From the NCBI GenBank assembly GCA_021805985.1, contig JAJZDN010000029.1, forward strand, positions 1 to 45,581: a DNA stretch of 45,581 nucleotides, in the 5' to 3' direction. Positions 3,874 to 45,524 of the stretch are shown here, piece by piece. Source of the stretch: Planctomycetota bacterium (GTDB lineage: Bacteria; Planctomycetota; Phycisphaerae; WQYP01). A model generated the notes under the pieces. That model searched no databases, was not told the origin of the DNA, and worked only from the letters and a program-made list of their open reading frames with translations. The translations under genes were made by a program, and so were the position numbers. Every line of letters starts with the position of its first letter. The stretch's first letter is position 1.

Positions 3874-6800
3874 ATGGTTACTCGCCGGCAGCGTTGTTTC
3901 ATTTTCGGTTTGCTTCTGCTCATGTTTTCCGGCTTACCAAAGGTGAGTGCCGCGACTTTCGACTCATCCAATGCGTTGTATATCAGCCACGCCAAATTTC
4001 AAAAGATCGCGACCGCCGCGTTGGCTTGGGCCAAAGGGCACCCGCAATCACCGGATAGCCCCCGATTGCTTTTCCGAGTTGTCATGGCGGCGACTGTGCG
4101 TGGCGACGATCCGCGGGATTTGAGCATTGCGCAGCGGCGGCTGATTCTGGATTTTCCCGGCAGCAATGAGGCCCGGTATTTTCTCGCGAACATCCCCGGT
4201 TCCAAGGCCTACCGGGCGGTCGTCACGAGTCTTTTACGGTGGTTCACTTACCACCCGAAGAAACGCAACGCCCACATTATTGACGGCGTAATCCGTAGCG
4301 GATTACAGCATTTTGGCATCGACGCGGTTTCTGTAAACTTTTCCCAGAATGCCCTGCTGTGCTACCTGGTAACGCACGAAGCCGGAGATACCGAGGTTGC
4401 CAACGAGATGCTCGGAGCCACGGAACCGTCATCCTCAGATGGAAAATATCCGAAGAAACTAGCTGGAGATGAGATACGCGAGGTGGTCGTTGACGGAACT
4501 ATGACGCCCCTTGCAAAGTTCCGCTTGCTGGGAAGGTTGGGGCAAACTGAGCCGACATACCTCCTGGAAAGGTACTATTTGCACTGTATGCCAGCGGCAG
4601 TGCGGTCATCAAAAAAGCTGCTGAAGCTGCACGCCGAAGAGCTGATATTAAACGGCCATTTCCGGCGTGCGCTGGCCTTGTTAACCGGAAGCAGCCGCCA
4701 CGAATCCAGCGCCAATGTCGAATTTCTTCGCATTTACTGCTACGCTGTTTTGGGCCACCCTGGGCGTGCGGCCAAGGCGGCAAAACAACTGGCGGCGGAT
4801 TTTCCGAAAAGCCCGTGGGAACACGATGCGCTGAAACTCGCTAAATTGGCGGCCGGTCAGAGCGCTGCCGAGGGTCAGGTCGTGTCGCAAGTTTTGCAGC
4901 TCCTGCACGCAGTGGGCAACAACGTCCGGGGATATGAACTTCGCGCAACGCTCAACGGTAAGCACAAGACCGCCTGGAGGTTCTACGGCGGAGTAGCCGG
5001 CCGCGCCGGGAATATTCAGATCCGGAAAAACGGCGACGTGGTCGCCGCGATTGCATGGAACTCCAGAGCGGTGCGACTTTTTAACCCCAGCGCAAAGCGT
5101 ACCTTTCGATTGCCGGTCGGGCTGGCAGGACGGGCATCGGCTGGCGATAGTTCGCCCTCTGCAGATCTGGCCAGGGTACTATCAGCCCTCGGCACTTCCG
5201 AACTTGATGCAAAGGGGATCTTGGCACGTTATCTGCCCGCCTCGCTCAAGACTTACGCCGGAACAATGCAGTTTTTCCACCAGGCCCGTCGGTTCGGCGT
5301 GTTCTTCACCCAGCAACGAGATCAAGGCGAAAAAACGTCATTTGGTGTGGTGATTGCGGGAATCTCAAATCCGAAATGGATGGAGGTTTCAGCCACGCTG
5401 AATCGTACGCACCATCTTCTGAAATTGACGTGCGGCGACCACGCTGAGCTGAGCCTTGTAGGGAGTTCATCTCCGCATTTTGCGCTCTCGCCGCCAAAGT
5501 GGCCGCCCGGAAGCGTACTCCAACAAAAGAAATCCATGGCCACGGCGCTTAAGGATGTTTCCGCCTTGCTGCCGGGATGGTTCGGGATTTTTGGCAACCT
5601 TATGACAACGGCTAATTCGTTGGAGCATGACAGCAACCATGATTACATCGCCGCTCTCAAGGCCAAGGCCCTCATAAAATATCCGGCGGAACTGCCTCCC
5701 GCATTTAACGGCACCGGCCCAGCTCTTTCTCCCCATTTTTCCGCAGCCGCGCAGCAAAAAGCAGTGGAGATGCTTGCGTGGGCCAGGAAAAACTCCAACT
5801 CTGCCCTTGCTCCGGAAAAATTATTTACTGGATTCATGTTGGCCAGGCTGGCAAAACAACCCGTTCTTGCCGGCAGACTTGAAAGGCGGTTGGTGCTGTT
5901 CTACGGTTCGAGCCTGCAGGGGCGGTATGATCTAACGCGATTTACCACAGCTTCGGAGTTCGGACATTTAGTCCAGGCACTTCTCAAACACAACGCCAAT
6001 AAAATGACCCCGCCCCGCGAAGCAGCGATTCTGCGGGTCGTTTACTATGGGGTGGAGGAATTCGGAAATACCAATGACCGGGCCGATATCTTTGGCACCG
6101 GGCACAGGGTCAGCGCCGTTTTTTGCGAGGCTATAGCCATGCAGGCAGGTTGGGCCAAGCTCGCACAGGAATTCCGCGGGGCAGTGGTCTCACTGGCCGC
6201 ATCAGATAAAACGCTCGCAAGCGTGTCGCACATTTTTGTCCAACCCGGGCTGACGCCCGCCGAGCGCATTGAGAAACTGACGGGAATTAAAAAGAGTAAA
6301 ATAAGCCCGTATCTGACGCTCTATCTGATTCACATGAGTCACCACCGGCACGTAAATCCTACAATAATGCGCGACGCTGAACAGCTATACGCTGCTACCG
6401 ACCAATGGAAGCGGGCCTGCATTTATGGCAATGACCTGGCCCGTTTGCATCGGGATTCGGCTCGAACAGCATTTATCCTTGGCTATTGTGAACTTCGGCT
6501 CCGCCAATCAGCCGCCGCCCGCCAGACCGCACTGGACGCGGTAAAAAAATTTCCCAAAAGCCCGTGGGTAACGAATCTGAACTTACTGGCTTCAGAAAGT
6601 CTTACCTACCGGAAAAACTCCCAACAATGCGCCCAAGCACTGCGCACAGTGGATCACTGGCTGATACGCAAACCGACCGGGTTCGAGATAACCGTGCATT
6701 TCCAGGCCGTTGGAAAGCCCGCATTTTTCGGCTACTTTGCCGCAACCACCCATTTTATTCAATTGTTTGGGAGCCTGAATGACAAGCCTTTTATGGCACT

Positions 6801-34520: not shown

Positions 34521-34713
34521 CCGGGAGCCTGTCCCAGTAAATCACCACGTTGCTAAAGTTCCATCCTGCCATCGCGCTGCGATCGCCCTTATGCACCTGA
34601 CCAGCAAGTGCCATCCCGCCGAGTTCGGTAGAGACACTATTCCCAACGTCTCACCGCACTAATAGTTGCAGCACACCTGCATGGCCCCGCCGATTGACCG
34701 CACCCCCGTGCCG

Positions 34714-37143: not shown

Positions 37144-37677
37144 TTTTTTCACGGCCCGTGTGGACGCCGCGGCTAGGAGCCTGGCCGAGTGCGAGTAATC
37201 GCCGGGTTGTGACGAGGTGCATCCGCCAAGCGGCGACGACGGCCTGCGCCAATCCAACCACCCGCCATGCACCACCTGTTTCATCCGTACCGGCCGCCAG
37301 CTGCGAAGGCCACTTCTTCAGGTTCATCGCTGGCGGTGGCTGGCCAAAGCAGTATCGGACGGATCCAGCGTCCACGGCCGGGGGCCGCAAGAAAATAGCG
37401 CAGCAGGGACACGGAAAAGTCCGGCAACTGTGGCATATATGGCAGCAGATGGTATCGGCGAAAGGAAAGTGCTGCGTTAAGCAGCCCCACGGCGGCCCGC
37501 AGCCGGGTTAAAGTACATGCCGCTCCCTGGAATAGCACCCAATATCCGACCGCAACGTCGCTGTTCACCTGAGCGCATATACCAAGTCCAGTCTCCGCGG
37601 TAACCTGTAACCCGCGTATAGCATCTCGCCGTTAGCATCCCCAGCAACTCCAAAGCATTTTTATCCGGCGAGCGCGC
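37144..37677. other. 534-base gap with repeat motifs
   Basis: No convincing gene is present; open frames here lack ribosome binding sites and familiar products. It contains a GGAGCCTGGCCGAGT motif (37176) related to 34523 and 40998, and a small heptad block (37599-37640). Confidence 0.5.
37599..37640 (+). repeat. 7-bp tandem repeat block
   Basis: The units read GGTAACC, TGTAACC, CGCGTAT, AGCATCT, CGCCGTT, AGCATCC. The same GTAAC-then-GCATC order is seen in the two 182-bp repeat copies. Confidence 0.7.
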
Positions 37678-40791: not shown

Positions 40792-41000
40792 TTATAGAAA
40801 GGCGGGCAACAGGAATAAAAACAATGCCAAGCTGAATAGCAGCACAGGTAGCCCGGTGATGAACCACCAGACGTACATAATATCAGGCATTTCCTGACCA
40901 CGATGCCTCAGCAGCGACATACAGAAACTACCAAGATACCACGTTCCCAGGCAAGAAAAAATGGCAAGGACGGCAAAATCTCCGGTTTGCCCCGCCAGGA
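40792..41000 (-). pseudogene. 3' remnant of a membrane-protein gene cut by a repeat
   Basis: Reading leftwards from about 40996 the frame gives two hydrophobic segments (FAVLAIFSCLGTWYLGSFCMSLL and VWWFITGLPVLLFSLALFLFLLPAFL). They are joined by a short polar loop and followed by a stop. Upstream of this point the same frame runs into the GGAGCCTGTCC repeat (40998 onwards), which gives no membrane pattern. The start of the original gene is not seen. It could still be expressed as a 104-residue chimera from 41106. Confidence 0.45.
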
Positions 41001-41178
41001 GCCTGTCCGAGTAATGGCCGGGATTGCGATGGGTCTGAAATGTCCCATATGCACGCCGGAGGATCGAGCCGACTCTTAATAATGAGTCTGCGAGATCCGA
41101 CAACAAAGCAGACGGGGCATTTCAGGCTCACCCCGCGGGGCGGTGTGACAGGTACCGTCCGGGGCAAAAAACACCGCC
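40998..41178 (+). repeat. Dispersed repeat with two strong nested hairpins
   Basis: The element starts with GGAGCCTGTCCGAGTAA, also found at 34523 and, altered, at 37176. A 16-bp stem (41031-41046 with 41114-41129, mostly Watson-Crick plus G-T pairs) encloses a 5-bp stem (41061-41065 / 41094-41098) and an inner 5-bp stem (41071-41075 / 41084-41088). An 8-bp hairpin (41139-41146 / 41171-41178) follows. G-T pairs only make sense on the plus strand, so the RNA would be read rightwards. Confidence 0.55.
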
Positions 41179-44139: not shown

Positions 44140-45105
44140 TTAGCTTCCTTCGGGGGATCGCGTGGGGGCGTCTGCGCAGCGCAGGGAGGGCGAGCGCAGC
44201 GAGTCCGACCGCAGCGGAGCAGACGCCCCCACGCGGCGCGATTCCTCATCCTCTTGCCGGACCTTCTGGCACGCTGCTTCGCCTCCCGCTTTTGGCCTTA
44301 CCATCTCCGGTATTATCCCATCGCTGTGCACCTCCTGCGGTACACGCATCTTGAGCTTTCCGTGCGGACGGCATTGGTTGTAAATCGCTACCGCCTCCGC
44401 CACCGCTGGGGCCACCATCGCCTTGCGACTAAAGCTTGTTCCCATTCCCAGTTCCTGTTTGAGAATCCCGTTCAATCGTTCCGCCTTCCCGTTCTCGTAG
44501 CAGTGGTTCTCTTCCGTCATGCTTATTCCCATCCCAGCTGCCTTTAACCGCTTGATATACGGCTGGGAGCAGTACTGACTTCCCCGATCCGAATGATGCA
44601 CTGCATACGCATCAGCAGGTAACTGCTTGATCGCCTGGGCCCCGGCCCGAATGACACCTTCCATCTCCAGTGTATCGCTGCTATCGAATCCTATGATCTT
44701 GCGACTAAAGGCATCCATCACCAGGCTTAAATACATAAACCCTTCGCCTGTTCGGATATACGTTATATCGCTAACCCAAAGCTGATGTGGACCGGTGACC
44801 TGCATATCCTTGGCAATGTTAGGATACACCGCAAATCCATGCCTGCTGTCGGTTGTGCGGGCACCACGCTTGGGGCGTTCTATGAGCATATTGTGCCGCC
44901 TTAACAACGCAAAGAATCTATCCCGCCCTATCCTCACTCCGGCCGCCTCCAGCTCTGCCTCCACTAAATGCCGTAACTTCCGGCATCCCAGACGCGGCAT
45001 ATAGCTGCGCTCTTTGCGAATTAATTCCAACACCAACGCTTCATCAACCGCCAAACGTTCCCGAACCAGCCGGGATTTGTAATAATTCTGCCGCGTCATG
45101 CCCAC
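44140..45105 (-). CDS. IS3-family transposase OrfB (DDE integrase domain)
   Basis: 321 residues. An N-terminal HTH_21-like segment (SYMPRLGCRKLRHLVE) precedes the rve integrase core. The DDE residues lie in WVSDITYIRT, HHSDRGSQYCS and NGKAERLNGILKQELG. The usual end motif is YNQCRPHGKL. Residues after about 270 are an unusual basic tail, coded partly by a perfect 17-bp inverted repeat (44159-44175 / 44219-44235). The product is normally made as an OrfAB fusion: in the frame upstream of 45105, VRKLCQTVGMTRQNYYKS continues from the slippery run at 45175-45182. The internal GTG at 45105 need not be used. Confidence 0.92.
   Translation of the reverse strand: MGMTRQNYYKSRLVRERLAVDEALVLELIRKERSYMPRLGCRKLRHLVEAELEAAGVRIGRDRFFALLRRHNMLIERPKRGARTTDSRHGFAVYPNIAKDMQVTGPHQLWVSDITYIRTGEGFMYLSLVMDAFSRKIIGFDSSDTLEMEGVIRAGAQAIKQLPADAYAVHHSDRGSQYCSQPYIKRLKAAGMGISMTEENHCYENGKAERLNGILKQELGMGTSFSRKAMVAPAVAEAVAIYNQCRPHGKLKMRVPQEVHSDGIIPEMVRPKAGGEAACQKVRQEDEESRRVGASAPLRSDSLRSPSLRCADAPTRSPEGS
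44159..44235. repeat. Perfect 17-bp inverted repeat in the 3' end of OrfB
   Basis: CGCGTGGGGGCGTCTGC at 44159-44175 is the exact reverse complement of 44219-44235, with a 43-base GC-rich interval. It extends the coding region beyond the usual IS3 OrfB end and resembles a REP-like insert. Confidence 0.75.
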
Positions 45106-45122
45106 CGTCTGGCACAGCTTTC

Positions 45123-45524
45123 TTACCCCGCCTGGCCAGTCCCCTTCGGACCGGTGGACCGCTTCCCATCGGAGTTTTTTTTAAAGATCTCTACGTCCAT
45201 GCCCATATGCTCGCAGGCTAGCTTCAAAAATGTCGCATTCAACACATTCTCCGCCTGGGTCTGCCCCAAGGCCTGCTCCAACTGGCCTATCCTCTTTTTG
45301 AATCCACGTATCTGATCCTGTTCGTCTGGCTTTTCCACTCGTACCACCTTTGCCTGTAAATGATTCCTACCGTAGTTTTTTATCCATTTCTGAACCGTTC
45401 CCATGCCGGAAATCCCATGATGCAACCGCGCCTGGGTAATCGAATCGAATCGACCGCCTTCCAACTCCTCAACCACCTGCCTTTTGAAGCACTCACTATA
45501 CCGCTTTATTACCCGTATACGCAT
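45123..45524 (-). CDS. IS3-family OrfA (HTH, frameshift partner of OrfB)
   Basis: 133 residues with a helix-turn-helix (about 8-50: RYSECFKRQVVEELEGG, then ITQARLHHGISG and VQKWIKNYG) and a leucine-zipper-like helix (LEQALGQTQAENVLN). It would bind the element ends. The zero-frame protein ends at 45123. A run of eight A on the minus strand (45182-45175) precedes the stop in the codons KKNSDG. Slipping back one base there joins the frame to OrfB without any stop. Confidence 0.9.
   Translation of the reverse strand: MRIRVIKRYSECFKRQVVEELEGGRFDSITQARLHHGISGMGTVQKWIKNYGRNHLQAKVVRVEKPDEQDQIRGFKKRIGQLEQALGQTQAENVLNATFLKLACEHMGMDVEIFKKNSDGKRSTGPKGTGQAG
45175..45182 (-). promoter_or_regulatory. Programmed -1 frameshift site of the IS3 transposase
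   Basis: Eight consecutive A (T on the plus strand). In the zero frame OrfA reads K-K-N and ends 20 codons later. In the -1 frame the reading continues L-R-W-E-A-V into OrfB. Homopolymer A runs are common slippery sites in IS3 elements. Confidence 0.7.

Follow-up and report, generated by a model that had tools for sequence, protein, structure and literature searches.

MITEs of bacteria are commonly regarded as hollow shells of insertion sequences. In Pseudomonas syringae, ISPsy36 (IS1182 family) and ISPsy32 have been described with GGCC and CTAG as their target repeats (PMC8027508). The IS630 family is also known for CTAG or TA targets. Among structured nucleic acids, the Skipping-rope RNA (RF02924) is a long hairpin with conserved loops that occurs in many phyla, and integron attC sites are characterized by RYYYAAC and GTTRRRY boxes together with an integrase. 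In addition, the table of Weinberg 2010 (PMC2864571) lists 'Rhodopirellula-1' from Proteobacteria and Planctomycetes, without an Rfam identifier and marked as an uncertain RNA.

In this context, we analyzed a folded stretch within a contig of a Planctomycetota bacterium; the whole stretch of 45,581 nucleotides is referred to as the window. The explanation that we favor as likely is that positions 40998-41178 hold a truncated MITE mobilized by an IS1182-type transposase and carrying an older arm that folds as a single strand, with both transposition and transcription being inferred. As a mobile element it is of an ordinary type. What stands out is the arm, which combines a covarying fold with a core that is invariant across phyla and is absent from our Rfam 15 scans.

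The element and its target site

The stretch 40998-41178 is best read as a non-autonomous TIR element in a copy that is truncated on its right side, and its features are collected in Table 1. The genome it belongs to (4.68 Mb in 197 contigs) contains 19 other near-full matches of 129-156 nt with 85-97% identity, and 55 matches in all when shorter ones are included, many of which comprise the element's first ~36 nt. With up to 3 mismatches allowed, the 24-mer of the TIR has 98 matches in this genome and a reversed control pattern has 0. All 73 regions with TIR matches were fetched and yielded 32 facing TIR pairs of 41-370 bp, with element ends reading GGAGCC...GGCTCC. Half of these pairs (16) span 41-57 bp and consist of two ends with almost nothing between them, leaving no room for an arm; the other 16 span 160-370 bp. 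Complete elements carry, between their TIRs, two structured arms that read inward from the ends, and the MITE criterion of dispersed non-coding copies with TIRs is met, although no right TIR was found in the window copy. In full relatives the second arm stands opposite the first. Only 13-15 nt of the window's second hairpin align with the right halves of three copies, so that its identification as a collapsed second arm is probable but inferred. For the solo fragment of the leading motif at 34524 the chance expectation is 0.02 at up to 3 mismatches; the copy at 37176 lies outside this limit of the pattern search.

The element was inserted into CTAG. The congener G007 preserves the empty site, CCCCG-CTAG-CAGG, where the window reads CCCCG-CCAG-GAGCC; the minus-strand ORF is continuous in G007 (...YLQACQSDLLAGQTGDF...), and the match to the window ORF ends at LLAG. 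Across the 32 TIR pairs, the dinucleotide outside the left end is TA or CA in 26 and the one outside the right end is TA or TG in 26, while TA stands on both sides in only 8. The combination of TA/CA on the left with TA/TG on the right therefore identifies the target as CTAG. Whether TA or CTAG is duplicated cannot be distinguished here.

These results bear out the observations of the sequence-only reading. It had proposed that the element cuts a membrane-protein gene, which held given the uninterrupted ORF and intact CTAG in G007. Its repeats of the leading motif also held, the first with its position corrected from 34523 to 34524 and the second, which has a small insertion, by eye. A 16-bp outer stem with G-T pairs on the plus strand (3 of the 16), two inner stems with an internal loop of facing G-A bases, and a second hairpin at 41139-41178 are all present in the sequence. 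Of the two natures it had offered, a mobile repeat is supported by the TIRs, the CTAG site, the empty site and the transposase partner described below.

Two further observations concern the surroundings. Near the empty site, G007 has a further element with two arms, whose stems differ (locus L280, 28-135 on the plus and 139-248 on the minus strand); its first arm is also found at the end of contig C149 (L286), so that two contigs appear to meet there. At 44140-45524 on the minus strand, the window holds a two-ORF transposase that by eye resembles the IS3 type.

Table 1. Positions of the element, its parts and related fragments within the window
Feature	Position	Strand	Basis or remark
Solo TIR fragment	34524-34541	+	2 mismatches in 18
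Solo TIR fragment with short insertion, GGAGCCTGGCCGAGTGCGAGTAATCGCCGGG	37176-37206	+	CTA directly before; by eye
Interrupted membrane-protein gene, 3' part	40792-40997	-	ORF unbroken in G007 through CTAG (LLAG)
Remnant of CTAG target, reads CCAG	40995-40998		sister genome G007 reads TTTGCCCCG-CTAG-CAGG
Left TIR, GGAGCCTGTCCGAGTAATGGCCGGGATTG	40998-41026	+	24-mer recurs genome-wide; ends common to IS1182-type IS
Structured arm	41027-41134	+	covariance model R1, 113.6 bits
Outer stem, 5' side	41031-41046	+	partner 41114-41129; double changes in relatives keep pairing
Core UGC, start of conserved internal loop	41050-41052	+	pairs with GCA 41108-41110
Middle stem GGATC/GATCC	41061-41065 / 41094-41098	+	doubly compensated in relatives
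Tandem G-A motif	41066-41067, opposite GA 41092-41093	+	28-30 of 32 distant arms retain each of G and A
Terminal hairpin GACTC/GAGTC	41071-41088 (41071-41075/41084-41088)	+	GTGTC/GACAC in other copies
Core GCA	41108-41110	+	partner of UGC 41050-41052
Outer stem, 3' side	41114-41129	+	partner 41031-41046; double changes in relatives
Second hairpin GGCGGTGT...ACACCGCC	41139-41178		probable collapsed second arm

Fold of the arm and its conservation among relatives

The plus strand of 40998-41178 reaches a folding energy of -81.9 kcal/mol compared with -61.7 +/- 4.0 for shuffled versions (z -5.0; 0 of 200 as good), and the minus strand is less stable (-72.3 kcal/mol, z -3.1). The outer stem is built from 13 Watson-Crick and 3 G-T pairs on the plus strand. 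Within the arm, the core UGC and its partner GCA are nearly invariant in 44 distant arms, and the middle stem occurs in relatives as GCATT/AATGC, GGGCC/GGTCC or GAGCC/GGCTT. No T-run follows the stem of the window arm, where the sequence is CACCCCGCGGGG, or that of the aligned family copies.

Among 60 relatives the element was found in 13, namely 6 of 7 from its genus, 7 of 20 from its family and 0 of 33 from its class; a diverged query detected it in 15 of 28 family genomes, the own genome included. A MAFFT alignment of 84 arms (A1) misplaced those copies whose apical part is shortened, and its consensus comprised only 18 pairs, 9 of them with double changes. It was replaced by an alignment of 29 representatives (A2) that leaves out 55 rows, among them near-identical copies, most shortened copies of G024 and G026, and L217. 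With a hand-drawn structure, the 29 arms show 91.5% standard pairs, compared with 84.1 +/- 0.6 in shuffled and 28-42% in slid alignments. Double changes occur in 17 of 34 pairs, and covariation amounts to 0.261 versus 0.134 +/- 0.009 for shuffled and at most 0.092 for slid controls.

A CxxC-like pattern noticed in the outer stem would hint at a coding body, which is unlikely given stops in most copies. Apart from this, the covariance model alone found three arms of the own genome whose stems have diverged from the main family (G000:C5:9548, C152:3180 and C182:16712).

The arm beyond the family

The covariance model R1, built from the 29 arms of the window's relatives, matches 22 of 392 genomes of the phylum at E <= 1e-3, the own genome included, with a best value of 9.7e-13 outside it. 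In the arms it found in 21 genomes of other lineages of the phylum, stems and TIRs differ and the loop letters are kept, with AUGCA-A-GGCG / CAACGC-GCAGA and tandem G-A pairs as the shared internal-loop letters. Several complete elements in these lineages likewise have two facing arms between TIRs. For sequence comparison without the core as a selection rule, 32 arms were taken from 49 rows after removal of 5 antisense rows and 12 from the window and its family; 2 rows come from the congener G007 and the rest from other lineages. Of their pair cells, 89.7% are standard versus 57% after shuffling (maximum 60.6%), and 26-32 of the 32 arms retain GGCG, the facing GAs and CAACGC.

Scanning named genomes for an exact core pattern, ATGCAAGGCG-(30-60)-CAACGC[AC]GCAGA, returned at least 120 contig stretches from many phyla, where rough arithmetic expects ~2 by chance. 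The 80 loci returned derive from Pseudomonas, Comamonas, Thiomonas, Variovorax, desulfobacteria, Bacteroidales, Lachnospiraceae, Acidobacteria, Nitrospirae, Omnitrophota and others, and include many MAGs. R1 matches 61 of the 80 at E <= 0.01, down to 7e-18; as these loci were selected by their core, only the stem part of the score is independent. The flanks of 76 pattern-found arms form a duplex with a mean of -42.1 kcal/mol compared with -21.7 for swapped flanks. In 47 rows across phyla, covariation reaches 0.808 versus 0.186 +/- 0.012 in shuffled and at most 0.132 in slid alignments. These rows are matches from 38 chosen sources and include 3 antisense hits of palindromic arms, and both the 47-row and the 32-row alignments were fitted to the model's structure, which biases them toward it. 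The core pattern occurs in only 5 stretches of viral contigs, and plasmid records gave one unannotated match to a Variovorax element.

Among 63 pattern-found arms with enough flank, a permissive test assigned a TIR-like pair to 31 and a facing second arm to 14; some of the 31 are chance matches, judging by odd sizes among them. Two classes are clear: elements of ~265-280 bp with two arms and ends such as CTAGGGTCTGTTCACG, and elements of ~161-170 bp with one arm. Thiomonas, Variovorax and Xenophilus carry the same ends again, in ~265-bp pairs and once in a 44-bp palindrome. A search for an autonomous partner in beta-proteobacteria found no long TIR pair among the listed matches.

Taken together, there is strong reason to regard the arm as a covarying structured family that extends far outside its own genome. 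The sequence-only reading had suggested a structured RNA family as its other possibility, to be checked with a covariance model, and stated that copies varying without keeping the pairing, or the lack of any other copy, would refute it. Neither was the case: relatives with compensatory changes were found, beyond shuffled controls. The structured family is thus supported, while its RNA nature is inferred, without data on transcription.

The arm is also not accounted for by the catalogued families we scanned. Rfam 15 gave no match to the whole window, to 40998-41178, to 20 loci of the own phylum or to 20 loci of other phyla. No scanned arm matches Skipping-rope at gathering, nor at E <= 2 in 8 loci, and the sole TwoAYGGAY hit (L362, 185-343) is far from the arm at 4832-4911. 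The literature searched, which did not extend to subscription papers and supplements, describes neither the core nor its sequence, and an earlier description is thus not ruled out.

Several neighborhoods may be recorded in their own right. Acido-Lenti-1 RNAs (RF01687) lie between a few hundred bases and ~1.2 kb from arms at two loci (L291, 1813-1859 on the minus and 1960-2009 on the plus strand; L298, 2801-2847 on the plus strand). A Paramuribaculum MAG carries two arms in tandem and in the same orientation (L321, 290-496), which suggests small clusters. In Pseudomonas-type genomes (L326, L335 and L347) an arm is found near the 3' end of a gene whose last residues resemble those of purH.

Strand and type of molecule

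G-U cells outnumber A-C cells by 58:25 in the family arms, 78:15 in the 32 arms and 87:28 in 44 arms, the last count excluding the 3 antisense hits of palindromic arms. This 2-5 fold excess of G-U over A-C mismatches suggests that only one of the strands is folded. In 57 dereplicated pattern-found arms, with the core excluded, 152 G-U pairs on the plus strand face 86 on the minus strand, a moderate bias (37 versus 16 by arm, sign p 0.0055). Selection thus seems to act on the plus strand as a single strand, as inferred without expression data. RNA is the simplest reading of the arm; without transcript data, single-stranded DNA is not excluded.

The genes neighboring 39 intergenic arms are oriented (-,-) in 16, (+,-) in 9, (-,+) in 9 and (+,+) in 5 cases and show no preference for the sense strand. 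This count is noisy, as the crude ORF finder also placed 24 of the 63 arms inside ORFs. The absent sense bias and the symmetric facing arms count against a simple RNA in mRNA tails, and inverted facing arms could suit a role as DNA as well as one as RNA.

The likely transposase partner

Four transposase families were searched in 8 genomes of the genus, and only at DDE_Tnp_1 loci do TIR pairs surround the gene. Three IS copies carry the ends of the MITE (L154, L160 and L152), fulfilling the MITE criterion of TIRs shared with an autonomous transposon, and all six of their ends are flanked by CTA|G. The congener G006 has an intact IS of 1,726 bp with a transposase of 477 aa, which contains DUF772 and DDE domains and scores 347 bits against the cut-off of 270 of the NCBIfam IS1182 model (NF033551); membership in the IS1182 family is met. 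The copy in the own genome is identical at 1,656 of 1,726 positions with a broken frame, and the one in G005 is shortened. An IS1182-family transposase is therefore the likely mover of the MITE, as inferred from the shared ends without biochemical data. The autonomous IS (L154) gave no arm match; because neither it nor the 41-57 bp forms have an arm, the arm is unnecessary for transposition.

A RAYT/REP partner was considered and rejected, with 0 of 30 fetched Y1_Tnp loci of the genus enclosed by a TIR pair. TIRs of the MITE type do occur near Y1 transposase genes, the REP-associated type, at 2 of the 30 loci (L195, 1409; L201, 578-628).

Proposed explanation and its rivals

In the explanation we favor, an IS1182-family transposase made in the cell would cut and paste the MITE at its TIRs. 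The arm would be a module of far greater age: a long hairpin, its stems variable and its core invariant, kept as a single-stranded fold by selection on one strand. This fold would most likely be RNA, produced when the element is transcribed, and may be recognized by a conserved, as yet unidentified bacterial partner. In different lineages the arm would ride on the ends of different transposons.

The most serious rival, which remains possible, sees the arm as a single-stranded DNA hairpin, likened to REP dimers or attC, that an HUH/tyrosine or hairpin-binding enzyme would use as its site and that was inserted into TIR palindromes. Facing arm pairs resemble head-to-head REP dimers, such dimers have been reported inside palindromes (Di Nocera 2013, PMC3733652), arms are found in unrelated TIRs, and the one-strand folding bias fits single-stranded DNA also. 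Against it, only 2 of 30 Y1_Tnp loci in the genus have a TIR nearby and none is enclosed by a pair, the ends are not GTAG/CGTC-tagged REPs of 20-40 bp, and no recombinase is linked. A bidirectional intrinsic terminator module is harder to defend and we judge it unlikely. Many solo arms outside the phylum do have an A-tract and T-tract at the base of the stem, and several of them are separated by 19-34 nt from a predicted gene end; yet the T-run is missing in the window arm and the aligned family copies, there is no sense-strand bias, and a terminator has no need of an invariant internal loop.

Two other rivals are very unlikely. One holds the arms to be functionless palindromes whose pairing is kept by intrastrand (quasi-palindrome) correction. 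Template switching can homogenize perfect inverted repeats, and the minus strand of 40998-41178 folds as well. However, conservation across phyla is highest in the unpaired letters, and one-strand wobbles are kept 2-5 fold over A-C; correction would erase G-T pairs and would not preserve the G-A loops. The other replaces IS1182 by an IS630/Tc1-type or IS5-type transposase as the mover. The CTAG/TA target fits IS630 and had suggested such a partner, and one-arm elements in other phyla have IS5-like ends. The searched loci do not support this: 0 of 15 IS630-type loci (PF13358) have a pair of these TIRs, the DUF4096 search gave only one locus, where the one TIR match is weak, and the matching TIR pairs enclose an IS1182-family gene.

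Returning to the favored explanation, a bolder version would take the arm as an undescribed pan-bacterial family of structured RNA or single-stranded DNA, a MITE cargo that changes from the ends of one DDE transposon to those of another, unrelated one and whose invariant core is read by a conserved bacterial factor. We see slightly more reason to doubt this version than to accept it. If it is true, the arm is the constant part and the transposon ends are the replaceable one; it is the interior of the MITE that is conserved here, while stems and TIRs turn over across phyla. Should the arm act as an RNA or as a single-stranded DNA site, a widespread regulatory or recombination module is missing from Rfam 15, and it would account for many hairpins that lie between genes in Proteobacteria, Bacteroidota, Firmicutes and the window's phylum. 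With its two conserved loop strands that face each other, the core offers an exact handle for finding the partner of the arm.

Comparison with known systems

'Rhodopirellula-1' overlaps the arm in taxonomic range, and identity is neither shown nor excluded; without a sequence comparison, an earlier sighting of the arm under this name is no more than a possibility. The likeness to REP/BIME dimers with RAYT (PMC3733652) lies in the head-to-head pairs of hairpins, which are intergenic and sometimes within palindromes. Unlike these, the arm shows no GTAG/CGTC tag, has no tyrosine transposase linked to it, and measures ~108 nt with several internal-loop motifs compared with 20-40 bp. The IS1182 family (NF033551) includes the partner IS by score, and this IS, unlike the MITE, is itself without an arm. 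The closest agreement is with bacterial IS MITEs: the elements are short, non-coding and dispersed, share TIRs with an autonomous IS, have a target preference and include internally deleted forms of 41-57 bp. What sets them apart from such MITEs is the presence of one or two structured arms, with a core that is common to several phyla and combined with unrelated TIRs.
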